Under the pieces are notes generated by a model, which had not been told where the DNA came from, did not search any database, and saw only the letters and a list, made by a program, of their open reading frames with translations. Position numbers and translations under genes: made by a program. Positions 33,184 through 59,170 of a stretch of 64,000 nucleotides of DNA are shown one piece after another. Source of the DNA: Clostridium sp. BJN0001 (GTDB lineage Bacteria > Bacillota > Clostridia > Clostridiales > Clostridiaceae); NCBI RefSeq assembly GCF_022869825.1, contig NZ_CP094971.1, forward strand, positions 1,365,501 to 1,429,500. Direction: 5' to 3'. Within the stretch, counting starts at the first letter, position 1. Every line of letters starts with the position of its first letter.

Positions 33184-33367
33184 AGACATCCTCCATTCTA
33201 ATACTTTATATGAATTATATATTCAATCTATGATTCTAAAGACGTAATTTATTCTACATAGGTATAGATATTTTAATTATTGTTATAAAACATCAAAATT
33301 TGTAACTTAATTAAATCAGACTCATAGACTAAAATTAGGAAACAAAAGTTGTCAAAAGGAGAACACT

Positions 33368-33541
33368 ATGAACGAAAATGACAAATGCATATACGATAAA
33401 GATTATGATAAATATGATAAAAAAGAATATGCACGAGTATATATAAAACCTCAACAATATACGAATCTATTTACATGCACAGAATCATTTGCAAATGGAA
33501 CTATTTTTAAAGATCTTGCAAAAATAAAATATAAATGTTGA
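33368..33541 (+). CDS. cotJA: Spore coat-associated protein CotJA
   Basis: A 57-residue protein, first gene of the cotJ operon. The segment ARVYIKPQQYTNLF followed by FANGTIFKDL is characteristic of the CotJA family. AAAGGAG lies 5 nt before the ATG. The operon order and the spacing to cotJB (about 10 bp) support the call. In Bacillus the operon is made in the mother cell under sigma-E; a CATAGACT at 33323-33330 weakly resembles a sigma-E -10, but no clear -35 was seen. Confidence 0.85.
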   Translation: MNENDKCIYDKDYDKYDKKEYARVYIKPQQYTNLFTCTESFANGTIFKDLAKIKYKC

Positions 33542-33551
33542 GGTGACATAT

Positions 33552-33815
33552 ATGAATGAAAATGAATTATTAGAAAAAATAAGAATATATCAATTTTGTG
33601 CTGTCGAATTAAATTTGTATCTTGATAATTTCCCAAATGAAGAAAATGCTGTGTATGATTATAAGGCAGTTTCTAAAAAGCTTAATGAATGCATTATGGA
33701 ATATGAGAAAAACTATGGTCCATTAACAAACTTTGGTTCTTCTTATTATGCAAATCCACAAAAATGGCTTTCAAATCCATGGCCATGGGAAAATTGTAAT
33801 AATAGGGAGGATTAG
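33552..33815 (+). CDS. cotJB: Spore coat protein CotJB
   Basis: An 87-residue protein of the CotJB family: the helical N-terminus RIYQFCAVELNLYLDNFP, then YGPLTNFG and the Trp-rich ending WLSNPWPWEN. The ATG at 33552 is chosen because GAGGTGA lies 5 nt upstream; a GTG at 33543 is also in frame but overlaps this site. Confidence 0.92.
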   Translation: MNENELLEKIRIYQFCAVELNLYLDNFPNEENAVYDYKAVSKKLNECIMEYEKNYGPLTNFGSSYYANPQKWLSNPWPWENCNNRED

Positions 33816-33818: not shown

Positions 33819-34025
33819 ATGTGGTATTATGTAAAAACTTTAGAATATCCAGTAAACTTAAAATCAAAAGATTTAATGATGGCTAAATTACTTCTTGCAC
33901 AATATGGGGGCCCAGATGGGGAACTTGCTGCGTCTTTAAGATATTTAAATCAAAGGTATACAATGCCTACTAATATGACTAAAGGTCTTCTTAATGATAT
34001 TGGTACTGATGCTACGATTACCTAA
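33819..34025 (+). pseudogene. cotJC: cotJC, 5' fragment interrupted by the prophage
   Basis: CotJC is a manganese-catalase-like coat protein of about 190 residues. Here only about 65 residues match: LEYPVNLKSKDLMMAK, then QYGGPDGELAASLRYLNQRY and GLLNDIGT. The family continues GTEE(L/F)AHLE, carrying metal ligands; this frame instead reads DATIT and stops. The match ends within the tggtactga stretch at 34001-34009. All later ligand motifs are lost, so this fragment cannot be an active catalase. The missing 3' part is expected at the other prophage end, beyond the window. Confidence 0.88.
33997..34010 (+). other. Probable prophage attachment junction in cotJC
   Basis: Homology to CotJC breaks between 34001 and 34010 (tggtactgat). 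The att core should lie in this stretch. The partner junction is not in the window, so the exact core cannot be fixed. Confidence 0.6.
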
Positions 34026-34052
34026 TTGCAAAAATATAAAGTTAACTATACT

Positions 34053-34083
34053 ATAAAAAAAGACCAGGATTTTCTCCTGATCT
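34053..34083 (-). terminator. Terminator at the prophage end, after the membrane-protein gene
   Basis: A 9-bp stem (34061-34069 with 34075-34083) is followed on the minus strand by a T7 run. It shields cotJC from prophage transcription. Confidence 0.8.
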
Positions 34084-34229
34084 TCTACTATGAAAATAAT
34101 TTAATTTATTTTAAATTATCTACTGCATATTTTATCTCTTCTTAAATAAAATTCCCATATTAATAAGATTATACTAATATATTATAATGTGTAAATTATT
34201 ACAATAATGTAGAAAATAAATCTAGTATG

Positions 34230-35369
34230 CTAACTTTTATTACTTTTTTCAATTGTTTTATTTTTCATTTGATCATATTCTTTATTGTTTTCTTTATTAG
34301 AATTATTATCACATTTACTGTTTTTTAGTATTAATACAACCATAATTAATGAAACTATTAATATTATAAAAAATCCTAATATAGAAACTAATTTAGGGAA
34401 ATTTTTACCTAAAAGCACAAACCAATATCCAATATCTTTAGAATCTATATAATATAACCACGAACAGTTTCCTAATATAATGACTAGAATTAACTCACTC
34501 CAAAATACGAGAGGATATTTTTGAACTAAATTAGCATCTTTTCTATCTGATGATTTAATTTCTAGTTTTGTCATTTTGCTTACAAAAAACATAAATACAA
34601 AAATTAAATTTGTTAAAAATAATCCCCATATAGAACCTATTATCATAGCTTGTAATACTGGAATATAAATGGCATCTTTAAGAATCTCTTCAAGAGAATT
34701 TATTCCACCAAATACTAAAAAAGACATTGCTGTAAATATACCCACTAAAGAAATTAGTTGGGATATAATTGATTTATTAGAAGAACTTATCTTTTCAGTC
34801 ATTTTATTTCTAACTGGTTCTATACATATTGCAAATTTTTTATTAAATTCATCATCACTTTGCTTCAAATTTTCATATTGGTATATAGCTAAATGTGAAT
34901 GATCCCATAATTTCAATATAGTCTTTTTTAATTTTTTATATACCTTATCTTCTTTTTCTAAATATAATTTTTTATATATGCTATCTTCTTTATATATGTT
35001 ATCTTCTTCTTTTTCTAAATATAATTTTTTATATATGTTATCTTCTTCTTTTTCTAAATATTTTTTTTTATATTCATCAGATAAAACAAATTCTGTTAAT
35101 GTTTCTAAATTAGTTATAAATATTCCTTGTTTCTCATTATTTAATGAAAATATATATTTACTTATTACTGAATATGGTAATCTATCATACTTCTGCATAT
35201 ATTTTTTCATTACCTTTATAGAATTATCTTTATCAAATTCTGATGTTGTTTTCATAATACATGAATCTAAAATCTTATTTATTTCAGAAACTAATTCTTC
35301 TAACTTATTTTCTTTTAAAAGTCTATTTTCTACCAAATCAGATGTCTTTTTCGTAAACTTTATTCTCAT
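34230..35369 (-). CDS. Four-helix membrane protein, candidate toxin paired with the Panacea protein
   Basis: 379 residues without a recognised family. The N-terminal half is hydrophilic and helical, with a tandem 13-residue repeat (YLEKEEDNIYKKL) around residues 95-150. Four hydrophobic segments follow: near LISLVGIFTAMSFLVFG, MIIGSIWGLFLTNLIFVF, ELILVIILGNCSWLYY and LGFFIILIVSLIMVVLIL. A short charged tail ends the protein. It starts 9 bp after the Panacea-domain gene. Panacea antitoxins are known to neutralise many unrelated toxins, including membrane-targeting ones, so a toxin role is inferred from context only. Confidence 0.65.
   Translation of the reverse strand: MRIKFTKKTSDLVENRLLKENKLEELVSEINKILDSCIMKTTSEFDKDNSIKVMKKYMQKYDRLPYSVISKYIFSLNNEKQGIFITNLETLTEFVLSDEYKKKYLEKEEDNIYKKLYLEKEEDNIYKEDSIYKKLYLEKEDKVYKKLKKTILKLWDHSHLAIYQYENLKQSDDEFNKKFAICIEPVRNKMTEKISSSNKSIISQLISLVGIFTAMSFLVFGGINSLEEILKDAIYIPVLQAMIIGSIWGLFLTNLIFVFMFFVSKMTKLEIKSSDRKDANLVQKYPLVFWSELILVIILGNCSWLYYIDSKDIGYWFVLLGKNFPKLVSILGFFIILIVSLIMVVLILKNSKCDNNSNKENNKEYDQMKNKTIEKSNKS
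34940..35070 (-). repeat. Tandem 39-bp repeats inside the membrane-protein gene
   Basis: Two nearly complete 39-bp units and two shorter variants encode YLEKEEDNIYKKL-like repeats. Units differ by multiples of 3 bp, so copy-number change would keep the frame. Confidence 0.75.
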
Positions 35370-35378
35370 AATTAAATT

Positions 35379-35861
35379 CTAACCTTCACTAAAAAAATTA
35401 TATATAGAATCCTTAGTTATTATCTTATTCCATCCACTAAAATATACGTTCTTCCATGGATCTTGGTTGTGTGTGATTTCTACCAACTGTCCAGCTGAAT
35501 ATTGACTACATTCATCAACCATACTATTTATTAGATTTTTATCTTCAGGGAAAATAATGTCTTCATTATATAATTTTTTTGTTGCTTCCCATATTCCATT
35601 ACTTAAATCAATATAACTATCTATATATGGTATATTATTACTTCCATACATTTTAAATTCTCTATATACTTTTGGTACTACTGGTCCAAAATCCCAAGCT
35701 TCAATATCTTCATTAAAGCATGGCTGCATGTTCTTATCAACCAAAAAAGACGCTTGTACAAAATACAAGATTTTTTGCAATTTTAAATTGGATATATTAT
35801 ACTCTTTTTTATTGCCGTAGTTTATAATATATCTTGCAATATCTAAAACATCATAAGCCAT
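35379..35861 (-). CDS. Panacea-domain (DUF4065/SocA-like) antitoxin
   Basis: 160 residues that are essentially one Panacea domain: LDIARYIINYG at the N-terminus, ISNLKLQKILYFVQASFLV, and the hallmark AWDFGPVVPKVYREFK. This domain is found in SocA, GepA and phage-borne antitoxins. AGAGGTGAT lies just before the ATG. It is the first gene of a two-gene unit with the membrane protein, the antitoxin-first order usual for toxin-antitoxin pairs. It sits between the lysis genes and the attachment site, a typical place for lysogenic-conversion genes. Confidence 0.85.
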   Translation of the reverse strand: MAYDVLDIARYIINYGNKKEYNISNLKLQKILYFVQASFLVDKNMQPCFNEDIEAWDFGPVVPKVYREFKMYGSNNIPYIDSYIDLSNGIWEATKKLYNEDIIFPEDKNLINSMVDECSQYSAGQLVEITHNQDPWKNVYFSGWNKIITKDSIYNFFSEG

Positions 35862-36099
35862 ACAATCACCTCTTTATTATTTCTTTATTATAAATAGTAT
35901 ATGTATAAATATTACCTATATTACCTATACTCTACCATTATATTAGAAAATAATCAAATATCGTAATCACCCCAATAAACATAATACTAACTTAATTTCA
36001 TAATATAATTTTATTTTCTGTAATTACTCGTTCACTTATTATATATGGAGTATTAGAAAATTTTTATAAAATATTTAAAAATTTTTTAAATATTTTTTC
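35862..36099. other. AT-rich region upstream of the Panacea operon
   Basis: About 240 bp with no credible gene. It should contain the minus-strand promoter of the Panacea pair; a GGTAATATAGGTAAT direct repeat (minus strand) near 35909-35927 could be an autoregulatory site. Confidence 0.35.
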
Positions 36100-36150
36100 G
36101 ACAAAAAAATAAAGGCAGTACATAAGAAATTAATCTTATGTACTGCCTTT
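36100..36150 (-). terminator. Late-operon terminator after the amidase gene
   Basis: A perfect 16-bp stem (36111-36126 with 36135-36150) is followed on the minus strand by a T-run. It is the strongest terminator of the prophage and separates the late genes from the Panacea pair. Confidence 0.9.
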
Positions 36151-36154
36151 ATTA

Positions 36155-36829
36155 TTATCCCACAATTTTACAAAACCAACTGTCAAGAACTTTCTTTAGT
36201 TCTTCTGCTTTTTCTTTACTTATATACTGTGTTTCTATCCATATACCTTTGTTATTTCCTCTAACATAAGTTTTAATATCTTTGAAATAACTCAACACAT
36301 AGTTTATGTCTATACCATCATATCCTGAATAAGCAGATGGTAAGTAGCTTGTAACAACATAATATTTTTTATTATCTTCTGAAACTATCCCAGTTTTAAC
36401 CTTATCTAATGGGAAATAAGTACCAGGGCATGTGCTTTGTCCTTTTTCTCTATGACCATATATATGCATTTCTCCATACTTATTTAATAAATATGTCTTT
36501 AATTCACACCATGCATTATATTGAGCAACAGGCATTTCTTTTCTATTATCATAGTTTCCTTCAAATGCAATTCCTAAACTATTTGTATTTGCACCCTTGC
36601 AGTGTGCTCCTATTGCATTGTCAGGTCTACCTTTATAAATGGAGCCATCTAATCTAATGTAATAATGATATCCTATTCCAGCCCATCCATTTTGATTCTT
36701 ATGCATATTGTGAATAGCTTGTACAGTCCAAACAGGTCCTTCAGCATCTATATGATGTACTATTAGCATTTTAGGTATATTACCATAACTCATATTTCCA
36801 AAATTTAATCCAATATTATTAATATTCAA
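36155..36829 (-). CDS. Phage endolysin, N-acetylmuramoyl-L-alanine amidase
   Basis: Cuts the amide bond between MurNAc and L-Ala to release phage. 224 residues. An amidase_2/PGRP domain (about 20-145) has zinc ligands in MLIVHHIDAEG and in YGHREKGQSTCPG. The C-terminal 75 residues contain a YYVVTSYLPSAY-type SPOR-like repeat region that may bind the wall. The start is TTG, 9 nt after GGGAGG. It follows the holin gene by 15 bp, as in a lysis cassette. Confidence 0.92.
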   Translation of the reverse strand: MNINNIGLNFGNMSYGNIPKMLIVHHIDAEGPVWTVQAIHNMHKNQNGWAGIGYHYYIRLDGSIYKGRPDNAIGAHCKGANTNSLGIAFEGNYDNRKEMPVAQYNAWCELKTYLLNKYGEMHIYGHREKGQSTCPGTYFPLDKVKTGIVSEDNKKYYVVTSYLPSAYSGYDGIDINYVLSYFKDIKTYVRGNNKGIWIETQYISKEKAEELKKVLDSWFCKIVG

Positions 36830-36844
36830 ATCTATTTTCCTCCC

Positions 36845-37282
36845 TTATTTATCTGATTGACTTTTCTTTTTAAGAATATCAACTGCATTCACTAATACAG
36901 GTGGCATATTTATACCCATAAGTCCACCATTCTCAAGTATACTTAATAATTCATTTGCGATAAAAGCTAATATTACAGCATTTCTTATAAAATTAGAATC
37001 AAGTACTGTATCTACCTGAACAGCAACAGCAACTATTAACAGAATAAATATTTTTTTTGCTAATCCCTTTAGACCTGCATTACTTTGTAAAGCTCCTGTA
37101 TCTGTTTTAGGACTGTTTTTAAATACTAATGCAACAATTACTCCACTAAAATAATCAATTATCATACAAATTATTAGTGCTTTAGCTAAACTATCATAAC
37201 CCCCTAAAAATTGTCCAAATATACCTCCTATAGCACACATTGAACTATAAAATCCAGTTCTTATTGTCATTGTTTTTTCCAT
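36845..37282 (-). CDS. Phage holin (toxin secretion/phage lysis family)
   Basis: About 145 residues with three hydrophobic segments: near SMCAIGGIFGQFLGG, ALIICMIIDYFSGVIVALVF and IFILLIVAVAVQVD, then a further helix NAVILAFIANELLSILEN. This matches the Cph1/TcdE-like holin family. It forms the membrane lesions that release the endolysin. The ATG at 37282 is preferred, 8-9 nt after AAAGGA; two closer in-frame ATGs abut that site. Confidence 0.9.
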   Translation of the reverse strand: MEKTMTIRTGFYSSMCAIGGIFGQFLGGYDSLAKALIICMIIDYFSGVIVALVFKNSPKTDTGALQSNAGLKGLAKKIFILLIVAVAVQVDTVLDSNFIRNAVILAFIANELLSILENGGLMGINMPPVLVNAVDILKKKSQSDK

Positions 37283-37308
37283 TTTCATCATCCTTTCTTA
37301 AAATAAGC

Positions 37309-37333
37309 AAATAAAAAAGACCTTTTAGGCCTT
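37309..37333 (-). terminator. Small terminator between tail and holin genes
   Basis: Minus-strand AAGGCCT-AAA-AGGTCTT stem followed by TTTT. It lies within the late operon. Confidence 0.55.
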
Positions 37334-37362
37334 CAACTTACTTTTAAATTATTTAATTTTAT

Positions 37363-38400
37363 TTACAAAGATAGTTTAATATCAGGTATTCCAAAATATA
37401 TTAAAAGAGCTTGAGTTACTGTAACTATTTTTATTTTTTTGCTTTTAACATAATTTATAAATTCATCCAATTTATCTGGTACAAAAATATTATCTCCATA
37501 TTTAACTTCATCTTTCATCCAACAATGCTGAAATAAAATACACCACCCCTTCTCTTTATTTTCTTCATATTCCCAAACCATCTCACCTCCTGTCCAATTT
37601 CCTTCTGAATCAAAATAATCTTTCCATACTTTTTTATACCCAAGACTATTCATTACTTCATCTTCTTGCCATGTTCCAATTCCAGTTGATTTACATAAAT
37701 ACATTCTTGATATATTCAATTTTTTTAATGAAGATAATTGCATATTACCTTCACCAACATTCAAAGCATAACTTACAAATTTTGAACATACTTCTTCAAC
37801 TTTTGACGGATTTGGATCTGTATTAGCATTAGGGTATACTAATATTTGTTCAGTTATTGTTCCTGGAATTAAAAGTTTTTTATCAATCATATATTGTTTA
37901 CATCTTGTAATAAGACCAGGAGAATTTTCTGGACTTAATGTATATCCGCCTTTAATATGATTTAACAAATCATACCCTTCACTATTTAATTCTTGTAATT
38001 GTTCAGTTGTCATACTTCCTTTTAAATCAATCATATCAACAGGAATCGATAGACTTGCCTTTATTCCATACTTTTCATATATAGGATAAACAGTTGTTAA
38101 AAATTCTTCTGGAGCATCATCATCCATAAATGTAAAAAGAGTTTTATTTTTATATGATGAAAAAATATTATTTAATTGTTCTTTAAGTTTTTGCAATGTT
38201 TGCAAAATACCTTGAATTATAACTTTCTGTTCTTGCTGAATCAATATTAAATTTTCTATATTTTGAAACATAATCTCAATTATGTTTTTCTCTTCTTCAT
38301 TAAAATTGCTATGTTTTTTGTTATATCTTTCTAATTTATTTAAGTTTGTTTGTTCAACTATATTATCACAATTTTGCCAGTCTATATATTCATAGCTCAT
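37363..38400 (-). CDS. Tail-associated protein with polysaccharide deacetylase-like domain
   Basis: 345 residues. The N-terminal third has a coiled-coil-like helix (IEIMFQNIENLILIQQEQK). The remainder resembles a NodB/polysaccharide deacetylase barrel: LFTFMDDDAPEEFLTTVYP with Asp residues at the usual metal position, then YGIKASLSIP, and a late FQHCW. The canonical HxxxH is not clear; LLNHIKGG may stand in for it, so activity is uncertain. It overlaps the preceding small gene (stop/start ATGA). Position between tail genes and holin suggests a tail tip or fibre protein acting on cell-surface glycans. Confidence 0.72.
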   Translation of the reverse strand: MSYEYIDWQNCDNIVEQTNLNKLERYNKKHSNFNEEEKNIIEIMFQNIENLILIQQEQKVIIQGILQTLQKLKEQLNNIFSSYKNKTLFTFMDDDAPEEFLTTVYPIYEKYGIKASLSIPVDMIDLKGSMTTEQLQELNSEGYDLLNHIKGGYTLSPENSPGLITRCKQYMIDKKLLIPGTITEQILVYPNANTDPNPSKVEEVCSKFVSYALNVGEGNMQLSSLKKLNISRMYLCKSTGIGTWQEDEVMNSLGYKKVWKDYFDSEGNWTGGEMVWEYEENKEKGWCILFQHCWMKDEVKYGDNIFVPDKLDEFINYVKSKKIKIVTVTQALLIYFGIPDIKLSL

Positions 38401-38660
38401 CACTTCACCCCTGATATTTGTGCTGCATCATCAACAACTTTTTGCATTATCAAAACTAGCTTATTAGTACTTTCCAATAAAGACATGTTTTCTTTAATTT
38501 GAGTTTCTAACTGAACCTGTTTCTCTTTAAGTTTTTGTAATGATAAATTATTTTCTTCCATATTATCTTCATTGTTTTTTATACCATCTTCTATATTATT
38601 CATATTATCTTGATTAACCCAGGTCTTATTATTTTCCCATTTAGTTTTATTATATTCCAT
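38400..38660 (-). CDS. Small coiled-coil tail-region protein
   Basis: 86 residues, largely one long coiled coil (about 20-75). The N-terminal NKTKWENNKTWVNQDNMN resembles the start of many phage fibre proteins (KTxWxxG...WN). It is probably a tail-fibre linker or chaperone. AAGGAAGTG precedes the ATG. Confidence 0.6.
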   Translation of the reverse strand: MEYNKTKWENNKTWVNQDNMNNIEDGIKNNEDNMEENNLSLQKLKEKQVQLETQIKENMSLLESTNKLVLIMQKVVDDAAQISGVK

Positions 38661-38672
38661 AATTTCACTTCC

Positions 38673-41600
38673 TTATTTATCTGATACTTGTTGTTCATTC
38701 AATTTAAAAGTTCCACACAATGAATTATTTAATATTGGGCTACCATTAATTGTTATATCATATGCATCTTTAAATAAAACTGGATAGCTCAGTGTTATAT
38801 CTGGTGCAATTCCGTCACTTTCAACAACTATCCATGTATCTTGTCCACATGCAAGTATTGGCAATGGTTTTTCCAATTCATATACTTTCTCTTCATCAAG
38901 AATTTCTCCATTTTCATCTATTCTTTTTATAACTGAATCAACTGTTATTTCATCATAAATTGTACCTTTTGTCCTTAATGGTAAACATTCATCTGATATA
39001 TAATCTTTTAAATTACAAATATCTGTGTATTTACCATTTACATTCTTCGTTGATATAACAACATCTTTTGTAAAACATTCAATTTCATTTTCTATATAAC
39101 TACCTGGATTATTAGGAATATTACCTTCAAATAACATTATATTATTCAATATTAAAGTATTTTCACCATTAGGAGGATATATTGTTATGTATGAATGCAA
39201 TTCATCCGTTTTGAACTTGTATTGTATACTATCTCCATTCTTCACAGGCATTCCACCATTTAAAAATACTGTGCTGTTTTGTGTTCCATCAGTTTTATTT
39301 TCTGTAAACGCAAGTACAACACTGCCACTCCCTGAAGCTTTAAAACATATTGTATATTCTTTTGATGAACTTAAAAAGAACATATTTGTATATAAACCTG
39401 TAGAATAATCGTAGCTTCTTCTAGGACTAATATTTACAGTTTTACTCCTAGCCTTTATACCTAAAAAAGCAATGCATCCTATTTGAGATTTATACAGCAT
39501 AGTAACTTCATTTTTTAAGTCAATATCAATTGGAACTTTTCCAACTGACTTTTTAATAAGGTTAAAATCATATACACTCATTTCCTCTCCTCCTTTTACA
39601 GACTTAATTCCTGAATCTGTCTGAACTAATAGATCAGTCGCATATTTATCATCCATTGCTACTAATTCAGCAATTTGTGGTCCTGATGGCGTTTGTATTT
39701 CAACATAGTCTTTGCTTGTTATTCCAAAAGCTTTAGGCATTGTATCAATAGTATATCTATAATTACTTGATTTTAAATACATTTTATTTGGAACATACTT
39801 TAATAATTCACCAAGAGCATGTAAAATTTCTCCGCCATGAAATTGATACCAAATTCCATCATTTCTCCATGTACCTATTGTCGATTCTTTATTATAATCA
39901 CCTCTATCTGTTGGAAATTGAAAATTAATATCCATAAACATCAAACATTTATTTATAAGTGATAAACATATTCCATCACTTATAGCACAACTTTGATAAG
40001 CATATACTGCTGCCCTTAATATTAAAGCTACACCATGTAAATCTAATCCATCTTGAGTAGTTACAGATCCATCAGGATTAAAATTTGTAGGTGGACTTTC
40101 CTTACCAGATTTCCATACTTTATTTAATGACATAAAGAAATTATAAACTATGTTTTTAGCTGTTTTATTTTGGGGCTCATTCATTAATGCTAATGCAACA
40201 TTTGTTATTGCTCTATATTGATATCCACCCCAACTTGTATTTGGATCTGGACCAATAAAAGTAAAAGTATTTGGTTTCCCATACTCTAAATTATCCCATC
40301 TATCCCATATAAAACATGGCATAAAAAAATTGTATCCGTTTTTTAATCTTTTTGAATATTCAATTTGAGCATCTTTTAAAAATTTAAGATTTATATTAGT
40401 TCCCTTTTCGTCTCCTACATCCTGCCAAAACCAGGGGCACTGGTAGCCTGCATATGGTGTTCCTCTCCATGAATTAATTACTCCATTCACTGTATTCATA
40501 GTAAATGGAAATATATACGGAGAATATTTATAATCTTTAATAGGTAAAGGTCTCAAATAATGAAGCTTAAATGTTTGTGGTTTTTCTTCTGTTATTTCTA
40601 TATCTATATTTGTTGTATATGTTACAGTATTAAATTCAGCATCTTCTATGGTGCCTAATCTTAGCAATGTTAATTGACTAGTTTTAGATATTCCGCAAAA
40701 TAGTAAAGTATTCAATTCTCCTACTGGCGTATTTGGAACATCTATAAAGCCATTTTCTTGTATTTCATATAGATAAAAATCGCTTTTATCTAGTGAAACT
40801 GTTATTAATTTTTCTGAAGCTGGTAGTGCTTTAGCCCATTTCCATCCTGCTTCATCAAAAAAAGTTATTTCAATACATCCTGAACTAGAATAAGTTATTT
40901 TAGGAATCTCATTAAAAGTTCTACTTCTCATAGATGGATGGTATTGAGCATATCCTGCATATGCATTTCCTTCAGTATCATATTCAGTCCCTACTAAGAA
41001 ATCTACTTTTCTTGCAAGTCCTTCTTCTAATTTAACTTCGCTAAAAATTACATTGCAGTTATCACTTTTATATATAAGCTCTGCATGTGGGCTATAAAGC
41101 AAATCAAATTCACATTTTGATACATCTTTAAATTTATTTATTGGATATTTTAATACTTCTGCTTCATACTCATTTAATAACTCTCCAGTAACTTCATCAA
41201 ACAAAGGACCTTTTGCAATCTGACCATATGAAAATTCTTTTATAACTCCTGCAGCATTAAGACATTTAATTTTTAATACTATTGCTGTTCTTGTTCCTGC
41301 TTCTACTAACATTTCATAATACCTATCGTCATAATTGGTATCTCTATCTATTTTTGCCCCTAATAATATAGATCCAATTCCTTCTTCTATCATTATCTCT
41401 ATTGAACCATCTTCTGCATTTCGATTCCATTTAGGCTCTGGTATTCTATTAGAAGAATCTTTATACGTATTATCTTTATTTATTAATATTCCATCTTGGC
41501 TTTCATCTTCCGTAAGATTAAATGCAGCTCCAAAATATTGTTCTACATCTGATAATTGACATGTTCTTTTTAGTACATTTTGTGTATGATCTACTAATAA

Positions 41601-42428
41601 TCTATATCTTTCTGATTTTGTTATAGAATATAACTTTTTCCAACAAAAATAAGACCACCAAAGACTATCAACTGCTGCATCAGTTTCTCCTTCTTTAAGT
41701 GGTCTCCAAATTGGATAAGCTTCATAATTTTCAGATGGTTTTATAACTGGTCCTCCCATATCACTATAAACAACAATAATTGTATCTGTAATATTGTCTT
41801 TTAATCGTATTGATATCTCATTTTCATCTACAATCCAATTAGATATTTCATACTCAAATACATCTTTTTCAGAAACAGTTGTATCTTTAGGTACTATTGA
41901 AGCATATGGATCATCCCACGCCAATTTTGCATTGATAGTAAATGCCTTAAATACTTTTCTTGCTTCATACTTAGTTTTTATACTACCTTTTCCATTTTCA
42001 ACTTTTATTTTTTTAGTATAATACGCTTCTGAAATAAAATCCTTAGATACATTGAAAAGCCAATGAGGAATATACGTATTTAATTCACTGAATTTATAAT
42101 CTTTTGGAAATTTACAGTTTTTATATAGATATTTAAATGCTGATTCTATAAGTTTTTCAGCCATTCCAAGCCATTTCATTTTTTTTGTTGCTTCATACAT
42201 GGCCAATAATCCTAATATACTTAAAAATTGTCCTTCAGATGTCCCACTTTCAGGTGTAAAGTATCCGTTTCTTCCTATTTCTTCATGATATTGTGCTTTT
42301 ACTAAATTATCCATATTATGCGCCATTGGTTCAATACTTCGAGTATTAAAACTTAACCAATCAAAATAATAATTTGCCCATTTTATTATTTTATTTGGAC
42401 TTACTTCTATATCATCAATTATTCGCAA
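38673..42428 (-). CDS. Large tail protein, candidate receptor-binding/tailspike
   Basis: 1251 residues. No family is recognised with certainty. Aromatic-rich helices in the first 300 and again at about 640-880 (for example YQCPWFWQDVGD, FNPDGSVTTQDGLDLHG, IWYQFHGGEILHALGELL) look like an (alpha/alpha)6 glycosidase-type toroid with an inserted beta-rich domain (about 320-640). The C-terminal third is beta-rich and could bind carbohydrate. The start is TTG, about 7 nt after GGAGGTG and 2 bp from the upstream tail gene. Its place after the tail hub and before the fibre genes fits host recognition. Confidence 0.65.
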   Translation of the reverse strand: MRIIDDIEVSPNKIIKWANYYFDWLSFNTRSIEPMAHNMDNLVKAQYHEEIGRNGYFTPESGTSEGQFLSILGLLAMYEATKKMKWLGMAEKLIESAFKYLYKNCKFPKDYKFSELNTYIPHWLFNVSKDFISEAYYTKKIKVENGKGSIKTKYEARKVFKAFTINAKLAWDDPYASIVPKDTTVSEKDVFEYEISNWIVDENEISIRLKDNITDTIIVVYSDMGGPVIKPSENYEAYPIWRPLKEGETDAAVDSLWWSYFCWKKLYSITKSERYRLLVDHTQNVLKRTCQLSDVEQYFGAAFNLTEDESQDGILINKDNTYKDSSNRIPEPKWNRNAEDGSIEIMIEEGIGSILLGAKIDRDTNYDDRYYEMLVEAGTRTAIVLKIKCLNAAGVIKEFSYGQIAKGPLFDEVTGELLNEYEAEVLKYPINKFKDVSKCEFDLLYSPHAELIYKSDNCNVIFSEVKLEEGLARKVDFLVGTEYDTEGNAYAGYAQYHPSMRSRTFNEIPKITYSSSGCIEITFFDEAGWKWAKALPASEKLITVSLDKSDFYLYEIQENGFIDVPNTPVGELNTLLFCGISKTSQLTLLRLGTIEDAEFNTVTYTTNIDIEITEEKPQTFKLHYLRPLPIKDYKYSPYIFPFTMNTVNGVINSWRGTPYAGYQCPWFWQDVGDEKGTNINLKFLKDAQIEYSKRLKNGYNFFMPCFIWDRWDNLEYGKPNTFTFIGPDPNTSWGGYQYRAITNVALALMNEPQNKTAKNIVYNFFMSLNKVWKSGKESPPTNFNPDGSVTTQDGLDLHGVALILRAAVYAYQSCAISDGICLSLINKCLMFMDINFQFPTDRGDYNKESTIGTWRNDGIWYQFHGGEILHALGELLKYVPNKMYLKSSNYRYTIDTMPKAFGITSKDYVEIQTPSGPQIAELVAMDDKYATDLLVQTDSGIKSVKGGEEMSVYDFNLIKKSVGKVPIDIDLKNEVTMLYKSQIGCIAFLGIKARSKTVNISPRRSYDYSTGLYTNMFFLSSSKEYTICFKASGSGSVVLAFTENKTDGTQNSTVFLNGGMPVKNGDSIQYKFKTDELHSYITIYPPNGENTLILNNIMLFEGNIPNNPGSYIENEIECFTKDVVISTKNVNGKYTDICNLKDYISDECLPLRTKGTIYDEITVDSVIKRIDENGEILDEEKVYELEKPLPILACGQDTWIVVESDGIAPDITLSYPVLFKDAYDITINGSPILNNSLCGTFKLNEQQVSDK

Positions 42429-42430
42429 AA

Positions 42431-44065
42431 TTACACCTCCAAGTCAGTTCTAAACCATACATCTCCAACTTTTGCATCTACATTTCCATTATCAATCATA
42501 TAAGCTCTATCCTTTTCACACATTTTACCATCTTGAAACACTATTCCATATTCAAGACTACTACCTGGAACTGCAGATACACCATCAATATAAACATAAC
42601 CACTTACACATTCTATTTTTAATCGCATAACATTTGTATTAGGAGCAACAATTATATAATCAGGTTCTGGATGCCAATACAGATCATATACTTCAAAATC
42701 GACTTCAACTCCTGTTTCAGTATTATACGCATCCCTTGATGATGACTGTAATTTAAGCTTATCTCCATTAGTATTTTCTATCCATACTTTTATAACACCT
42801 TCTCCTAAAATTCTAAAAGAATACCTTGTTGATAATGATGCCCACTTTGAACCATCAACTAACTCAACTCCAGTAAAAGCCTTTTGAAAACAATGCTGCC
42901 CTTTAGTTAAATAAAGAGAATAATCACCATAAGCACTATAAGCTGTAGATACAATTCCATCTGTATCCCAATAATCTGGTTTTAAATTTTCATCAAATCT
43001 TGCAAAACTAGAGTTATATATATAATTTGGTATATGCCATATTCCTTTTGCTATTCTTGTATAATTTTCTTCAGATGTGCTTTTATCTCCTGGTTTATTA
43101 GCAAAACTTTCTAAATCAACGCTCATTCCACCGTTAAATGTTAATTTGGTATGCATTACAGCAACATTATAATACTTATCTGTATTGTTACTATCTTCTA
43201 CTTTTACAATATCTCCTGTTTCTATATATGGTAGTCCTCTCATTTTTAATGAAATATCATTATAGGATATATTAATCAATTTTATATATACTTCTTCAAC
43301 GATTTTATTCGTAACTAATGGATTAATACATTTAATGATTTTATATTCTTCTGACTCTCCCCTAGATATAGAATATGAATCATTTATTTGAAAACGCACC
43401 GAACCTGGTGTAAATGTAGAAACATCAACTTTTTGAGTATTATAATTTTTCTTTTTAATAATTTCATCATTTTCTTTAAAAGTTACTATAGTAATATTTC
43501 CGTTTTTATTAAATTTAGCGCATCCACAATTAGCAGATGCTATATAGCTCAATATTTCTTTATAAGTATATCCACTAGGCTTTGAATCAATAGTATATGG
43601 CTCACTTGTAAATTCAACTACTACATTTAAACGTTCAGCCAATTCTTCTAATAAAGATTGCATAGATGTCGGATAAGTTAAGCTAGAAGAAAAAATTCTA
43701 TCTAGCTTATTCATCATATCATAGCAAACATATTTCACTGAATTATTTATCTGAGGTTCAGAATCAACAAAAAACACCCCCAAAGGCATCCATTCACTTT
43801 GATTTTCTCCATTATAATCAGCAAAACAGATATATGGCTTTACTTTATCCCCTGCTTTAATAATACTTGATTTTGTTTCTATTTCTAAAATAGAACTCAT
43901 TGTTGAACCTATTTCTAAACAGCTCCCACATATTGAATCTTCTATAGTTATAGAATTTATATTATTTGATGATATTATAGTACTATCATTAACTTCTGCT
44001 TTAAGTTTTATATTTCTAGTCGTGTTTTTAGCATAATTTTTAAAAAGTTGTGATACATTATACAT
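42431..44065 (-). CDS. Tail hub/tip protein with C-terminal carbohydrate-binding-like domain
   Basis: 544 residues. Residues 1-330 look like a siphovirus tail-hub fold: LEIGSTMSSILEIETK, WMPLGVFFVDSEP, KYVCYDMMNKLD and LPYIETGDIVKV. Residues 350-500 have jelly-roll-like strands (GDYSLYLTKGQHCFQKAF) like carbohydrate-binding modules. The ending AKVGDVWFRTD is common in phage tail-tip proteins. It is downstream of the tape measure and distal-tail genes, as expected. Confidence 0.72.
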   Translation of the reverse strand: MYNVSQLFKNYAKNTTRNIKLKAEVNDSTIISSNNINSITIEDSICGSCLEIGSTMSSILEIETKSSIIKAGDKVKPYICFADYNGENQSEWMPLGVFFVDSEPQINNSVKYVCYDMMNKLDRIFSSSLTYPTSMQSLLEELAERLNVVVEFTSEPYTIDSKPSGYTYKEILSYIASANCGCAKFNKNGNITIVTFKENDEIIKKKNYNTQKVDVSTFTPGSVRFQINDSYSISRGESEEYKIIKCINPLVTNKIVEEVYIKLINISYNDISLKMRGLPYIETGDIVKVEDSNNTDKYYNVAVMHTKLTFNGGMSVDLESFANKPGDKSTSEENYTRIAKGIWHIPNYIYNSSFARFDENLKPDYWDTDGIVSTAYSAYGDYSLYLTKGQHCFQKAFTGVELVDGSKWASLSTRYSFRILGEGVIKVWIENTNGDKLKLQSSSRDAYNTETGVEVDFEVYDLYWHPEPDYIIVAPNTNVMRLKIECVSGYVYIDGVSAVPGSSLEYGIVFQDGKMCEKDRAYMIDNGNVDAKVGDVWFRTDLEV

Positions 44066-44074
44066 AAAACTTAC

Positions 44075-44416
44075 CTACAATTCTATAATATTAAATTTTA
44101 CATCTTTATATAAATTCAAAAGCAAATTAGTAACTGGTCTGTCTCCTACATAGAATTCCCCAGTTTTATTTTTATTACTTTGTGGATCAGTGTAATTAAC
44201 TGAAAAAGATGAATTTGAAACTGCTGTTAATATTATTGATAATTCTTCTTTTGTCATGACTCCAAATTCAAAACTTATTTTTCGCTTTACAGCTATTCTA
44301 TCTCTAGTTAAAGTTCCTTCTGCATTTCTTGTTGTATCACCATCAACATCAACTATACTAATTTGGCAATTTGTTAAATAAGGTTTAAAATCTATTCCAT
44401 TAACTTCTATCGTCAT
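44075..44416 (-). CDS. Small distal tail-type protein (DUF6711-like)
   Basis: 113 residues, beta-rich: MTIEVNGIDFKPYLTNCQ and FEFGVMTKEELSIILTAVS. This resembles a family of short proteins encoded directly after the tape measure in clostridial phages; a distal tail role is inferred from position. AAGGAG lies before the ATG. Confidence 0.65.
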   Translation of the reverse strand: MTIEVNGIDFKPYLTNCQISIVDVDGDTTRNAEGTLTRDRIAVKRKISFEFGVMTKEELSIILTAVSNSSFSVNYTDPQSNKNKTGEFYVGDRPVTNLLLNLYKDVKFNIIEL

Positions 44417-44428
44417 AATTTATTCTCC

Positions 44429-47400
44429 TTATATTAAGATAATCTTTTTTCCAATTTGTTTTTCTAGCTGTCTTATTCCATCAATTGTACCTCTTGCTAT
44501 TTCTCTTTTGTCTATCTGTAATACTATCTCAGTTAATTCAGACTCTTTGTTTGTTGTTGTCAATAAGCCATCAAGTAGTATCTGCATTTTATCTCCAACA
44601 GCATTAGCAACTGCTTGCCCTAAGCTACTAACAAATCCTGTGTTTTCTAATGGAACAACAGCTTCCTTACCTGCTTCACCTACCATTGCGAGTGTTGGAC
44701 TATCTATAATTCCACCTCGTGCAAGATATGGGATTTTACCAATGTTTAGTCCAAAACTTTTACCCCCATAGCTAGGTACCCAGTCAGGTATATTAATGTC
44801 TAATCCATTCAAACCACCTATAACAGTATTAATCATTCCTATAATAGCATTTAATGGAGAACGTATAACTCCTTCAAGAGAATTAACTATACCACTAAAT
44901 ATATTTTTTACACCTTTCCATGCTTTTTCCCAATTGCCCGTAAATGTTCCTGAAACAAAGTCATTTATTCCATTAAATATCTTTTTTATTCCTTCCCAAA
45001 CCTCTTTTGAACTATTAGAAAATCCATTTAAAACATCTCCTAATATTCCAAAGCTGTTTGACCAGTCTGTTGTAAATATGCTACTTAAATATTTATCAAA
45101 CAAATCAATTACACTCGTTATTATTTCCCAAGCTCCAGTCCATATAGTCTGTAAACCTTTAGTAGCCTGTTCCCAGTCTCCTGTAAAAGTTCCTACTAAG
45201 AAATCAATTAATCCACCGCATACTTCTATTGCACCTTTTATTATGTCTGCAATAACTCCACCTAAATCTATTATGATTTTTCCAATTGTTTCAAAAGCAC
45301 TAGCAAATAAAGGTGATAGACTTTCTATTATCCAATTAATAAATGGAACTAATATTTCTGTCCAAATTTTAGTTATTCCATCAGTAATTTTCCCAATTAA
45401 ATCAAGAAATGCATCTATTAATGGTTGTATTTGATCACTTACCAATACTGAAAAAAGTTCTGATAGTTCCGATAAAACTGGAACTACATATGTGTTATAT
45501 CCTTCTAGTAGTGTACTAAAAATAGAACTTAAACCAGTCCCAATTGCTGTAAACATAGGACTTATATGCTCATCATATACTTCATTTAATTTTATCATGC
45601 TATTAGTAACAAGCTGTGCAATACTTCCAACTACTGTTTCAATAGGTTGCAATGTCTCACTTATTGCTGTTTTTATAGCATCCTTATTTTCTATAAATGG
45701 TCTTGTTATAGCATCCAATATATCTCTAAAAGCTTTTGCAATAACTTCAGTTATTCCCATAAATGCATTAGCAAATATAGCTATTAAATCTGCAGTTATC
45801 TGTTTAGCAGTATCCGACCTAAACACACTGAAAATATCTGCACAGGCAGTTGCAAAATTACCTATTATTGTTTCCGTTTCAGATGAGATATCAAACATAT
45901 CAACAATATATTTTTTTATAGAATCACAATTTTGTTGAAGATATAAATTAATTCCGCCAAGTAAATTATCAGCTATGGTTACTCCAATACTTGCAACTGA
46001 ACCTGTTATCTGCCCTAACGAATATATTGTTGTTTTTACCCATTCTTTAGCAGCATTGACTACTTCACTATCTGAAAAAATATCTTTCAATGATTTTTTA
46101 ATGCCATCTATTGACTGCTTTATTCCATCAAAATTAGTATCAGCAAAACCGACTTTAAATCCATCTTTAAATATATTAAAAGCTTCTTGAAGTTTCTTTT
46201 TCATATTATCGACCATAGATTGAATTTTACTATCCATTTCATCTATGCCTGGTGTATCATAAAGTTGTGGAACATTTGCTCCACCTCCACCACCAGAACC
46301 TGCATCAGCACCTGAATCATTTTTTGAATTTAATTGATTTATCTCATCAAAACCCATGAGTTGATTAGTAGCTTCTTTAGCTTCTTTTCCTGCTTTTTTG
46401 GCTGCTCCTCCATAAACTCCCATAGCTTTTTTAGCATTTATTAGTCCTTGTGTTGCTTGTTTACTTTGCTTAAATGTTTTACCAAAAATTGCACTTATAA
46501 AACTTGCTATATACGCAGTAATAGTTGCTAATCCTCTCATTAAAGCATTTATTGCAGGAAGTATTGCATAGAATATTGGCGTAAATGCAACTGTTAAATT
46601 GCTCTTAATCTGATTTAAAGATGATACAAACTGCTCATTTGTGTTTAAATTGTTTAGCATTCCGTTTGCCATAGCTCCAAGTCCACGAATAACTATTGGA
46701 AATATTACTCCCCAAGCCAACATACTTTTTGCCATCATTGCCATTCCATAGCTCGCTCCACGTGAGCTATTACCAGTATTTTTCATATGCTGATTTGTAT
46801 TTTTTATATTTGAATTAAACTTTTTTGTCACATTTCCAGATCTTCTAGCACTTGCACTAAATGACTTTGTACTTTCTGATACATTATTAATTCCGCTTGC
46901 AGCTTCAGTAGCATTAGCTTTTAAAGATGATAACTTACTATCTAAATCTGATAATTTAAAACCGAGTTTATTAGACTGTCCTATAAGCTTATTTATACTT
47001 GCTTCTGTTTTTAAAATTTGTTCCTGTATTTTATTTTTGGTGTTTGGATTGAATGCTGATACATACGATTGCTTTAATTGTAAAAGCTTTTTTCTTTGCA
47101 TATCTATCTTAGCATTAACATTATTAAGAGTTTCCTCAGTATTAGATATCTGAGCTTTTATCTCCTCTTCATTAACTGGTGAACCTCTAGTTTTGTTAAC
47201 ATTTGATGCTTTTGCAGTTTTTGTTGCTTTTGTATCTTCAGATTTATGGAAATTGATTTTAGGTGGCTTAATATTTCTTATTACTGAAAAAGCACTCGAA
47301 AGAGTATCTTTTATTACTTGTGATGTTCTATTTAAACCATTTTTAATTGAACTATTCATTTTTGACATTGCTACATCTGCTTGCTTATTTATATTATCAA

Positions 47401-47533
47401 ACATATTTTTACTTGAATTATTTGTTGCATTCTTCATTTTAGATGCAATTAGATCAGACATCATATTTATCTGCTTACCAAGATCACTTTTAACCTCTAA
47501 ATCAAGACTTATTTTTCCTACACTATCACTCAC
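44429..47533 (-). CDS. Phage tail tape measure protein
   Basis: 1034 residues that set tail length. The N-terminus has coiled coils (about 1-240). Hydrophobic segments follow around 270-360 (SMLAWGVIFPIVIRGLG, ITAYIASFISAIFG), then a Gly-rich joint (GADAGSGGGGGAN) and long amphipathic helical repeats typical of tape measures (for example GNWEKAWKGVKNIF twice). Near the C-terminus AGEAGKEAVVPLE is the usual tape-measure motif. An attenuator-like hairpin lies just upstream. Confidence 0.93.
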   Translation of the reverse strand: MSDSVGKISLDLEVKSDLGKQINMMSDLIASKMKNATNNSSKNMFDNINKQADVAMSKMNSSIKNGLNRTSQVIKDTLSSAFSVIRNIKPPKINFHKSEDTKATKTAKASNVNKTRGSPVNEEEIKAQISNTEETLNNVNAKIDMQRKKLLQLKQSYVSAFNPNTKNKIQEQILKTEASINKLIGQSNKLGFKLSDLDSKLSSLKANATEAASGINNVSESTKSFSASARRSGNVTKKFNSNIKNTNQHMKNTGNSSRGASYGMAMMAKSMLAWGVIFPIVIRGLGAMANGMLNNLNTNEQFVSSLNQIKSNLTVAFTPIFYAILPAINALMRGLATITAYIASFISAIFGKTFKQSKQATQGLINAKKAMGVYGGAAKKAGKEAKEATNQLMGFDEINQLNSKNDSGADAGSGGGGGANVPQLYDTPGIDEMDSKIQSMVDNMKKKLQEAFNIFKDGFKVGFADTNFDGIKQSIDGIKKSLKDIFSDSEVVNAAKEWVKTTIYSLGQITGSVASIGVTIADNLLGGINLYLQQNCDSIKKYIVDMFDISSETETIIGNFATACADIFSVFRSDTAKQITADLIAIFANAFMGITEVIAKAFRDILDAITRPFIENKDAIKTAISETLQPIETVVGSIAQLVTNSMIKLNEVYDEHISPMFTAIGTGLSSIFSTLLEGYNTYVVPVLSELSELFSVLVSDQIQPLIDAFLDLIGKITDGITKIWTEILVPFINWIIESLSPLFASAFETIGKIIIDLGGVIADIIKGAIEVCGGLIDFLVGTFTGDWEQATKGLQTIWTGAWEIITSVIDLFDKYLSSIFTTDWSNSFGILGDVLNGFSNSSKEVWEGIKKIFNGINDFVSGTFTGNWEKAWKGVKNIFSGIVNSLEGVIRSPLNAIIGMINTVIGGLNGLDINIPDWVPSYGGKSFGLNIGKIPYLARGGIIDSPTLAMVGEAGKEAVVPLENTGFVSSLGQAVANAVGDKMQILLDGLLTTTNKESELTEIVLQIDKREIARGTIDGIRQLEKQIGKKIILI

Positions 47534-47550
47534 TTATTGACCTCCTCCCT

Positions 47551-47583
47551 AAAAAATAAGAGATACCTAGTTTTGGGTACCTC
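47551..47583 (-). terminator. Attenuator-like hairpin before the tape measure gene
   Basis: Minus-strand 8-bp stem (47576-47583 with 47560-47567) followed by TTATTTTTT. It straddles the stop codon of the upstream gene. Confidence 0.55.
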
Positions 47584-47911
47584 CAAACATTTCTTTTATT
47601 ATATTTTGTACTTCTTTTACCTTCTCTGACTTTTGTTCATTTGTCATATACTTAATTGGATTATTTTTGTTTCTCCAATCATTTCTTATTTTATGTTGTT
47701 CCTTAGTAAAATTCTTAATTACATCCTTATCTTCTTCACTTCTAATAGCAACAATATTTCCAAGTGGAGTTTTTGGCAATATTCCATTCAGTAAAGAACA
47801 AAATTCTTGCCAAGTCATATTATCTATCTGTGACAAGCGTATATTGTATTGTGCTGCAAAAGATGATTCTATAAGACTCCAATCCTCATATAAGTCATAC
47901 CATTTATTCAA
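47567..47911 (-). CDS. Tail assembly chaperone, Gp15-like (second frame)
   Basis: 114 residues. DNMTWQEFCSLLNGILP and GNIVAIRSEEDK match the Gp15-type proteins next to tape measure genes. The first codon seen is TTG, overlapping the previous gene by 8 bp, and there is no Shine-Dalgarno. The frame stays open upstream past that TTG. It may therefore be made as a frameshift extension of the upstream chaperone, or by translational coupling. Confidence 0.75.
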   Translation of the reverse strand: MNKWYDLYEDWSLIESSFAAQYNIRLSQIDNMTWQEFCSLLNGILPKTPLGNIVAIRSEEDKDVIKNFTKEQHKIRNDWRNKNNPIKYMTNEQKSEKVKEVQNIIKEMFGGTQN

Positions 47912-48242
47912 TACTACTGGGATTTTTCTTTGATATTTTTTCCATATCTTCTAAATCCATATTAGCAATAGCTGCCATTATCGCATTTAAAATAATTATA
48001 TATACTGGCATTGCATATTCTTGTGATTTAATATACTCACGTGCTTCTTCATTTAACGCAACTGTAAAAATCTTTTGTATCCTTTCTTCATCACTTAACT
48101 CTTTGTCTTCACTATACGCTTTTATTGCTATTGCTGCTGCAAAAGAATTGTTTATTTTAAATTCAGTATTTTCATTAAGTTTAATCTTAGGTTTTTGATT
48201 TGCATTTGCAATTCTATCAACTATATCATATGCTCTTCCCAT
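47904..48242 (-). CDS. Tail assembly chaperone (first frame)
   Basis: 112 residues: VDRIANANQKPKIKLNENTE, then helical EEARE and a C-terminal MDLEDMEKISKK. Position between the tail tube and tape measure genes is diagnostic for G-type chaperones. The last codons include a rare CCC (AAT CCC AGT) where a +1 slip would join it to the next frame. Confidence 0.72.
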   Translation of the reverse strand: MGRAYDIVDRIANANQKPKIKLNENTEFKINNSFAAAIAIKAYSEDKELSDEERIQKIFTVALNEEAREYIKSQEYAMPVYIIILNAIMAAIANMDLEDMEKISKKNPSSIE

Positions 48243-48256
48243 TTTTCATTTCCCCC

Positions 48257-48721
48257 TTATGCTTCAGTTACTGGTACTGGTGTATAAACTGGTTTTCCAT
48301 CACCTTGTAAATCAAATTCAAGTGGTGCAACATCTGTACTATCTCCGCCACCATTATTTGTTACACTTACTACGCAGTCAAAAGCTAACTTTGAACCATC
48401 AGGAAAATTAATTTCAGCCTTAGTAGAACAATCTAGCCCATCAGCAAATGTTGTTCCTGCTATATAATCATTTCCTTCATCTCCTACGTTTCTTTTTCCT
48501 TTTAAACTTATAGAAAAAGCTTTACCTGTCATTAATGAACGTTGCCATCCACTTGTAGTCATTGGTGTCCAGTTTTGTACTGTCCCATCAATACTCATAC
48601 TAAATGTCTCCATGTCAGCTATAGTTTTCATTTCTTCTTCTGTGCTCTGTTTACCTTTTATTCCAATCTTAAATTCTATATTATAAACTGGATAAACTCC
48701 ACTTGATACTGTTCCTGCCAT
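48257..48721 (-). CDS. Major tail tube protein
   Basis: 154 residues. MAGTVSSGVYPVYNIEFKI at the N-terminus and the central MSIDGTVQNWTPMTTSGWQR with SLKGKRNVGDEGND match the phage tail tube family. It is followed by the chaperones and preceded by the tail-terminator-like gene. Confidence 0.85.
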   Translation of the reverse strand: MAGTVSSGVYPVYNIEFKIGIKGKQSTEEEMKTIADMETFSMSIDGTVQNWTPMTTSGWQRSLMTGKAFSISLKGKRNVGDEGNDYIAGTTFADGLDCSTKAEINFPDGSKLAFDCVVSVTNNGGGDSTDVAPLEFDLQGDGKPVYTPVPVTEA

Positions 48722-48730
48722 AATTATTAC

Positions 48731-49120
48731 CTACCTTTCAAAATAAATTATTGTTTCAATTACAAATTCGAATATTCCATTATCATCAGTTCCTAATTCA
48801 ATAGGCTCTGATGACTTCATATCGAATTTAATTATTTTATGTCCACCGATTATTTTATTTTTATTACAAACTAGACAGTCATAAACCTCTTGTGCTTTCT
48901 TTTCTGCACTTGTAACATTCTTAGACCAATGTACAAGTATTGATATTCCCTTAGTTGAATATGACGTATTATTTAATCCTCCTAAGGCTATATTAAGCTT
49001 AACTCCTTGAATACCATAAATTCCTATGCATTGTTCTTTAGTTGCATCAATTTTTCCCGTATACCATTGAGGGCAATCTATTACAGTTTTTAAATAGTTT
49101 TTTACTTCACTTAATAGCAT
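48731..49120 (-). CDS. Minor capsid/tail-terminator protein (Minor_capsid_3-like)
   Basis: 129 residues with DCPQWYTGKIDATKEQCIGI and GISILVHWSKN, as in the minor capsid 3 family of A118-like phages; these fold like tail terminators. It overlaps the upstream gene by 1 bp. Confidence 0.75.
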   Translation of the reverse strand: MLLSEVKNYLKTVIDCPQWYTGKIDATKEQCIGIYGIQGVKLNIALGGLNNTSYSTKGISILVHWSKNVTSAEKKAQEVYDCLVCNKNKIIGGHKIIKFDMKSSEPIELGTDDNGIFEFVIETIIYFER

Positions 49121-49494
49121 TAATATATTACCCCCTTACTTAACTGTTTAAAAAACTTACCATAGGTATCTATAATCCATTGCTTTTTAGGACCATCAAT
49201 ATATGTTTCCATCCACTTGCCTTGCGCATTTACGTTTTTATCATGTCTAAAATTAAATTCTGGATGCCAATATAAACGCCTAGCATATGGAGTATCAAAT
49301 ATTATTTTGCCAATCATATTTTTTATATCTGTAAATCCACTTTCTTCTAATGTTCCTGTATCTTTGGGAACTACTGCACTTGTTACAATATCAGTTAATA
49401 CTGCTTCAACTGTCATTTCAAAAGCTTGTTTGCTCGCATTTTCTAATATTCCAATCTTATCTGAATATAATTTAATATCAACTTTAACATTCAT
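49120..49494 (-). CDS. Minor capsid protein (Minor_capsid_2-like)
   Basis: 124 residues with VPKDTGTLEESGF and TPYARRLYWHPEFNFRHDKN, typical of the minor capsid 2 (HK97 gp10-like) family. It overlaps the upstream gene by 4 bp. Confidence 0.8.
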   Translation of the reverse strand: MNVKVDIKLYSDKIGILENASKQAFEMTVEAVLTDIVTSAVVPKDTGTLEESGFTDIKNMIGKIIFDTPYARRLYWHPEFNFRHDKNVNAQGKWMETYIDGPKKQWIIDTYGKFFKQLSKGVIY

Positions 49495-49805: not shown

Positions 49806-49806
49806 G

Positions 49807-50160: not shown

Positions 50161-50168
50161 AAAACCAC

Positions 50169-50676: not shown

Positions 50677-50689
50677 AAGCTCACCTCAA

Positions 50690-51655: not shown

Positions 51656-51677
51656 AAAATATCATCTCCTATAAATA

Positions 51678-52286: not shown

Positions 52287-52363
52287 TTTCAATTCCTCCA
52301 TTCATTTTTTACCTTGTATGCCAAGTTCAGAATTAAACCTTTTAATGCCATGCTCAGGGCATA

Positions 52364-52398: not shown

Positions 52399-52419
52399 CA
52401 CATTCATAATTTTAAGTAT

Positions 52420-52454: not shown

Positions 52455-52455
52455 A

Positions 52456-52650: not shown

Positions 52651-52654
52651 TGCA

Positions 52655-59168: not shown

Positions 59169-59170
59169 AA

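Follow-up and report, generated by a model that had tools for sequence, protein, structure and literature searches.

The spore-coat gene cotJC of Clostridium sp. BJN0001 is divided by a prophage, and from its sequence we consider it probable that this prophage is an intervening element of the skin/SPbeta kind, which would be excised in the mother cell. The window, a stretch of 64,000 nucleotides, contains the left junction, and the right junction lies beyond it on the same contig (C1 of this genome, G000; the locus beyond the window is L003). The original prediction had already proposed such a switch, with a dead cotJC as the alternative, and we favour the switch because the two halves are in frame and represent the sole copy of the gene, an integrase adjoins, a candidate excision factor is preceded by a sigma-K-type motif and the sigK gene (239 aa) is intact.

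The cotJ operon starts at window position 33368 with cotJA (33368..33541, plus strand, 57 aa), followed by cotJB (33543..33815, plus strand, 90 aa from a GTG, with the ATG at 33552 as an equally likely start), both names being our assignment from operon position. In the 5' part of cotJC (33819..34025, plus strand) 63 native codons are followed by a short phage-encoded tail, whose stop codon at 34023-34025 lies within prophage sequence. As predicted, the cotJC homology ends at the prophage: it is in frame through codon 63, departs from the family after the GA at 34008-34009 and breaks directly before the catalase ligand motif EEMAH. We take the Mn-ligand positions to be divided accordingly, with GGPDGEL in the left half and EEMAH and the remainder in the right half; the Mn-catalase structural homologues of CotJC that were found include 1jku and 1o9i. 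About 125 codons had been expected past position 64000, and 124 codons plus a TAA were found in frame at C1:1440229-1440603 (L003:11230-11604), 40.7 kb from the 5' part and open to their own stop.

A search of the complete, single-contig genome (2,688,791 bp) with the Mn-catalase family PF05067 gave two matches, profile positions 1-65 at C1:1399319-1399510 and 64-199 at C1:1440226-1440597, and no intact cotJC or further Mn-catalase match. The pattern that would have spoken against the original prediction, an intact cotJC elsewhere and a decaying copy here, was thus not seen. Neither match contains an internal stop, and the frameshifts or relaxed selection of a degenerate remnant were not found, the dN/dS of both halves being 0.007-0.19 in the pairs giving a value (six genomes), although such low values are no proof of use after insertion. 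Both halves are in phase with the intact relatives, and no replacement coding sequence was found. A sporulation gene, its role assigned by homology to C. difficile cotCB/cotD, is hence split into two in-frame parts. Rejoining them by arithmetic gives 63 + 124 = 187 codons, and four intact relatives have 186-192 aa.

The core repeat expected at the far end is present at both junctions, but the common segment is just GA, located at 34008..34009 in attL (plus strand, the first two bases of cotJC codon 64) and at C1:1440229-1440230 in attR, beyond the window. A very short common core is normal for a serine integrase. GA is common to both junctions in all six elements compared, some having 1-4 extra shared bases; ACTGA, the 5 bp common to both junctions in G000, was rejected as the core because it would shift the frame and is absent from the other elements. 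Adjacent to the core, the phage arm of attL (34010..34037, plus strand) is a near-mirror of the attR arm at 20 of 28 positions, counted by eye, and attP sites of serine integrases usually have near mirror-image arms. The precise join at GA is an arithmetic prediction.

From core to core the prophage measures 40,721 bp, with its left 30 kb (34010..64000) inside the window. According to PHROG matches its minus strand carries lysis genes (amidase 36155-36829, holin 36845-37291), tail genes (tape measure 44429-47533, major tail protein 48257-48721) and, within 50690..58041, genes for the major head protein, the portal and the large and small terminase. A helicase gene is also present, and all ten prophage proteins submitted, plus the large integrase, had PHROG matches. 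Genes for head, tail, packaging, lysis, replication and integration were thus found, and by its gene content the element is a temperate prophage. Just inside attL (34230-35861) a gene with a Panacea domain (SocA-like antitoxin) and an ORF of 379 aa that has no Pfam match possibly form a toxin-antitoxin pair, and small serine resolvase-type and tyrosine-recombinase genes are located at window positions 58073-59881, besides the large integrase. An ABC-three-component-like defence set (CTD10, DUF2326 and MC6 matches; L003:5649-8665 = C1:1434648-1437664) sits between the excision-factor candidate described below and the integrase.

At the far prophage end, where the original prediction had looked for a large serine integrase, a gene of 563 aa with Resolvase, Recombinase and Zn-ribbon domains (L003:9563-11254 = C1:1438562-1440253, plus strand) ends at the junction, its final codons overlapping the cotJC 3' half in a different frame. 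Its counterparts at the same site (site A) in G033, G023, G031, G021 and G029 are 60-63% identical to it, and the one at cotJC in G034 is 57% identical (locus L038, a MAG locus taken as contig C209 of G034 by matching coordinates). In L038 the integrase (L038:3079-4860) adjoins the cotJC 5' half and is directed towards it, opposite to the arrangement elsewhere among the elements. Integrases of this type occur in seven of 68 genomes of the genus, G000 included, and every one is located at cotJC. In a genus search with the integrase alignment the top seven matches reached at least 823 bits and the next one 566 bits; since six of the seven genomes had been used to build the alignment, the high scores are partly by construction, and what counts is that no other genome of the genus has such a match.

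Scans of genomes and viral contigs gave the same association: wherever the integrase was at least 57% identical, cotJC was found at the integrase end (9/9 loci, at least four of them being genomes already counted, namely G033, G031, G021 and G034, while L116-L118 are near-identical to one another). The named hosts of cotJC-site loci are Clostridium sp. C2-6-12, Clostridium sp. LS and C. puniceum DSM 2619, plus a MAG. Within the locus DNA examined, none of the 78 other loci kept has cotJC at the integrase end, and three (L046, L063 and L102) have a Mn-catalase match away from it. The 812 phage records that matched the integrase were all less than 60% identical to it. Another recurrent target was noticed among integrases 44-47% identical, since seven of ten inspected (of 11) lie, by reading, in an ABC-transporter substrate-binding-like gene (L039, L040, L042, L043, L045, L047 and L048), with a ~1430-aa ORF adjoining in five of these seven loci.

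The splitting of cotJC is recurrent in the genus. A Mn-catalase match is present in 62 of the 68 genomes and cotJC is divided in 14, eight of them at the G000 point or one codon off (G000, G010, G021, G023, G029, G031, G033 and G034, the contigs of the last ending at the split point) and six at a second site, site B, in the codons for TGN-PW (G004, G007, G032, G037, G044 and G047; loci L029, L031, L033, L034, L131 and L133); the integrases seen at site B belong to another lineage. The two halves share a contig in G000, G010, G023, G029, G033, G004 and G037 and lie on separate contigs in the other split genomes, and in the 13 genomes whose junctions were read by eye the halves are in phase with intact relatives. 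Other partial Mn-catalase matches are found in G024, G028, G036 and G040, and G060 was left out of the count as it shows a deletion with frameshift instead of a split. The integrase of G010, one codon further on, is 26% identical, and those of site B are 36-39% identical and are found at the junction in G004 and G044 and inside the element in G037; for G007 no integrase was found within the stretch around the split, and the one listed by the genus search lies about 17 kb off on that contig. A wider family search covered 187 genomes, and re-examination of 15 of them among the matches listed gave one more split, in G097 from another genus (L146 and L147), where a CotJC homologue is interrupted at nearly the same codons next to a 22%-identical recombinase; in G096 the sequence breaks at contig ends near the site. 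As the recombinases of the G000 type, of G010, of site B and of G097 are so divergent, at least three and probably four integrase lineages use cotJC.

The elements differ widely in what they contain and in size, from about 7 kb in G029 over 40.7 kb in G000 to about 58 kb in G023, and in most close pairs the synonymous divergence of the integrase is below that of the cotJ genes. Therefore the elements appear to move sideways and to arrive repeatedly, and the purifying selection seen in the halves may date from before the insertion. Vertical inheritance of one old insertion was rejected, because the dS of the excision-factor candidate between G023 and G031 (0.10) is far below that of cotJC (about 1).

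A hint that split and whole forms may coexist comes from the metagenome-derived G034. Its 5'-half contig and its 5'-half-to-integrase contig overlap by exactly 127 bases and diverge within two bases of the core, and its 3'-half contig begins at GAAGAAC, where the whole and split forms would converge. Such a fork is as expected if both forms were in the sample and the assembler worked with a k of 127, which is a setting deduced by us, and a strain mixture would look identical to excision.

A small gene of 58-63 aa was identified by profile in all six of the site-A elements with a G000-type integrase examined; the profile was built from four of them, with G023 and G031 outside it. In G000 it encodes 58 aa (L003:3866-4042 = C1:1432865-1433041, minus strand), and we infer from its conservation that it may be the excision factor, or recombination directionality factor (RDF), of the prophage. 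No such candidate was seen in the 4.9-kb G034 contig. Among the 59 ORFs of the G000 prophage the amidase, the 58-aa gene and one integrase-region ORF are common to at least two other elements. The 7-kb element of G029 (L019:1288-8579) contains the integrase, the RDF candidate and FtsH-extracellular-domain and AI-2E-transporter-like genes. Comparing single sequences, four of its 13 ORFs, located in the integrase region, and the 58-aa gene match other elements; the four are parts or antisense shadows, the integrase gene being cut at the boundary, and the match of the 58-aa gene to G000 is by profile only. The RDF candidate itself has weak family matches, and for the C. puniceum version a helical hairpin was predicted with a mean pLDDT of 87. 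Neither sequence nor fold searches gave a meaningful PDB match, and no relative was confirmed when viral contigs were scanned with the RDF alignment.

Upstream of this small gene we found a motif of the form AC-N16/17-CATANNNT(A/G), called relaxed when it ends in G, which resembles a sigma-K promoter. In the available part of PMC3789822, sigma-K sites of C. difficile are described with AC as -35 element and a -10 element closely like that of sigma-E, and the cotJC homologues cotCB and cotD are described as sigma-K-controlled. In all six elements the motif precedes the small gene by 45-53 nt, exact in G021, G023, G029, G031 and G033 and relaxed in G000 (L003:4063-4090, minus strand), and is relaxed also in the IMG/VR elements L116-L118; at the small gene of L115, a further cotJC element, it is absent. 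Among 183 other ORFs of the elements, each 80 aa or longer and with its start placed mechanically, one is preceded by the motif, and its chance per 100-bp upstream stretch is 0.2-1.4% in Markov shuffles of four of the six elements. The motif had been noticed in the sequences before the pattern was written, after a sigma-E scoring scan that gave no significant sites had exposed it in its output, so the 6/6 result is partly post hoc, and as the elements are related it does not represent six independent events.

The cotJ operon offers an independent check on this pattern, pointing to a shared putative promoter type. In G000 the form AC-N16-CATANNNTA is located at window 33305..33331 (plus strand), 63 nt upstream of cotJA, and within 900 nt upstream of cotJC the motif was found in 24 of 27 genomes, once each and 487-678 nt away (relaxed in eight of the 24; the G000 position taken from the window), with 10 of 142 window stretches of 900 nt as a control. 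It is present in all 14 split genomes and missing in G038, G053 and G057, all of which have a whole cotJC (3/10 intact operons tested), and in seven genomes it lies 61-67 nt before cotJA. At the loci of the other lineages, a search at 38-80 nt before ORFs of at least 35 aa found it at seven cotJA genes and at three further ORFs named by reading: one of 70 aa close to the integrase gene of G010, an RDF-like one of 54 aa close to that of G044, and one resembling carbonic anhydrase. Among 14 RDF-like ORFs in relatives with other insertion sites, two carry the exact and three the relaxed motif, with a wider stretch searched and several of the ORFs being weak profile matches; by reading, two of the five motif-bearing ORFs are in non-sporulation genes. 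The motif therefore occurs outside the cotJC elements as well.

These observations suggest the following model. A temperate prophage would use, through its serine integrase, a site inside the gene for a Mn-catalase-like spore-coat protein, and in growing cells cotJC would stay split. During sporulation a mother-cell sigma factor, recognizing the sigma-K-type motif, may turn on both the cotJ operon and the small prophage gene, whose product would act as directionality factor and, together with the integrase, cut the prophage out at the GA core. The mother cell would be left with a whole, in-frame cotJC from which the product could be made, and the spore chromosome would retain the prophage.

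A different reading is that a phage inactivated cotJC by chance use of a site, that it shows ordinary induction only and that the spores simply lack CotJC, the halves being intact as the insertions are recent. Integrases often target conserved coding sequence, and the divergence of integrase and RDF candidate suggests repeated horizontal arrival. Furthermore, another full-length Mn-catalase is present in nine of the 14 split genomes (G004, G007, G023, G029, G031, G032, G033, G037 and G044), and B. subtilis mutants without CotJC in the coat had no apparent defects according to the available part of PMC12122855. We nevertheless regard simple inactivation as rather improbable, as no full-length copy was found in the other five split genomes (G000, G010, G021, G034 and G047), the motif precedes the RDF candidate in 6/6 elements and the 7-kb element, in which no phage structural gene was found, retains integrase, RDF candidate and motif. 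Improbable also is the idea that AC-N16/17-CATANNNT(A/G) serves the phage as an ordinary vegetative promoter and that the small gene encodes a phage regulator instead of an RDF; this we rate as the least probable account, even if CATATTATA resembles a housekeeping -10 box and the small gene has no fold or functional family match, since the motif is missing from 182 of the 183 other element ORFs and yet precedes cotJC in 24/27 genomes, and since, outside the integrase region, the 7-kb element has nothing but the small gene in common with others.

The timing of excision at sporulation might also serve the phage itself, for instance in copying or in escape from the dying mother cell, with the repair of cotJC as a valueless by-product. 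This explanation can be compatible with the same mechanics, and the head, tail, packaging and lysis genes of the G000 prophage as well as the motif close to some RDF-like ORFs in relatives at other insertion sites agree with it. Against it stand the nine of 14 such ORFs without the motif and the 7-kb element, whose five other ORFs match no phage structural family in Pfam or PHROGs, so that we hold it to be unlikely, if a serious candidate.

Returning to the intervening element excised in the mother cell, we lean slightly towards a wider reading in which phages repeatedly gate cotJC in Clostridium, these integrase lineages having entered it at two conserved stretches of codons. The excision factor of the main lineage and the operon it frees would carry the same kind of motif and fire together, and the 7-kb element of G029 would represent a domesticated switch of phage origin. 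If true, an enzyme-like coat gene would be added to the few sporulation genes known to be interrupted by excisable elements, with a splitting that is common in one genus. As cotJC is whole in some species and in others divided by a full prophage, by a 7-kb remnant or at a second site, and as a short promoter is predicted, one can ask whether such elements are a host-serving switch or harmless phage parking. We found no record of an intervening element in cotJC in the literature, which is weak evidence of absence as most subscription papers were outside our reach, and the accessible part of a paper on prophage deletion in C. saccharoperbutylacetonicum (PMC8285483) contains no mention of it.

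Elements known to interrupt sporulation genes are skin, SPbeta, vfbin, gin and yin, and the closest systems are compared here as far as the available parts of the cited reports describe them. SPbeta of B. subtilis is an active prophage that splits the spore-envelope gene spsM and is precisely excised at sporulation (PMC4191935) by a recombinase and a small RDF (PMC5595907). It resembles the cotJC element as a prophage inside a spore-envelope gene and differs in gene, host and integrase, and its excision is demonstrated, whereas the cotJC element is known from sequence. The skin element in sigK of C. difficile uses a large serine recombinase and the mother-cell-controlled RDF CD1234 of 72 aa (PMC5025042); skin in C. 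difficile and B. subtilis shares with the cotJC element a large serine recombinase and a small RDF (a candidate at cotJC), but it splits a sigma factor gene and its RDF is under sigma-E and SpoIIID, whereas here a coat gene and a sigma-K-type motif are involved. A prophage at a CotJC-like Mn-catalase gene is also present in C. difficile R20291, where phi027 is described as adjacent to cotG, which lies downstream of attR and is not divided as cotJC is (PMC11222575, PMC12122855); being described beside its gene, it was rejected as a precedent. Similarly clostridial is the prophage-like yin in the SigK-regulated gene yabG of C. botulinum V73, which has a putative SigK promoter before a putative RDF (PMC10747680) and thus an arrangement like the one proposed here for cotJC, but it is reported as unique to one strain and has a 14-bp repeat, compared with 14 of 68 genomes and a GA core for cotJC. 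Finally, gin in gerE of B. cereus ATCC10987 is excised by a serine recombinase and a small factor (PMC5595907), which again parallels the integrase and the candidate factor at a sporulation gene proposed here; gin has no phage genes and three recombinases, and its nearest analogue at cotJC is the 7-kb element of G029.
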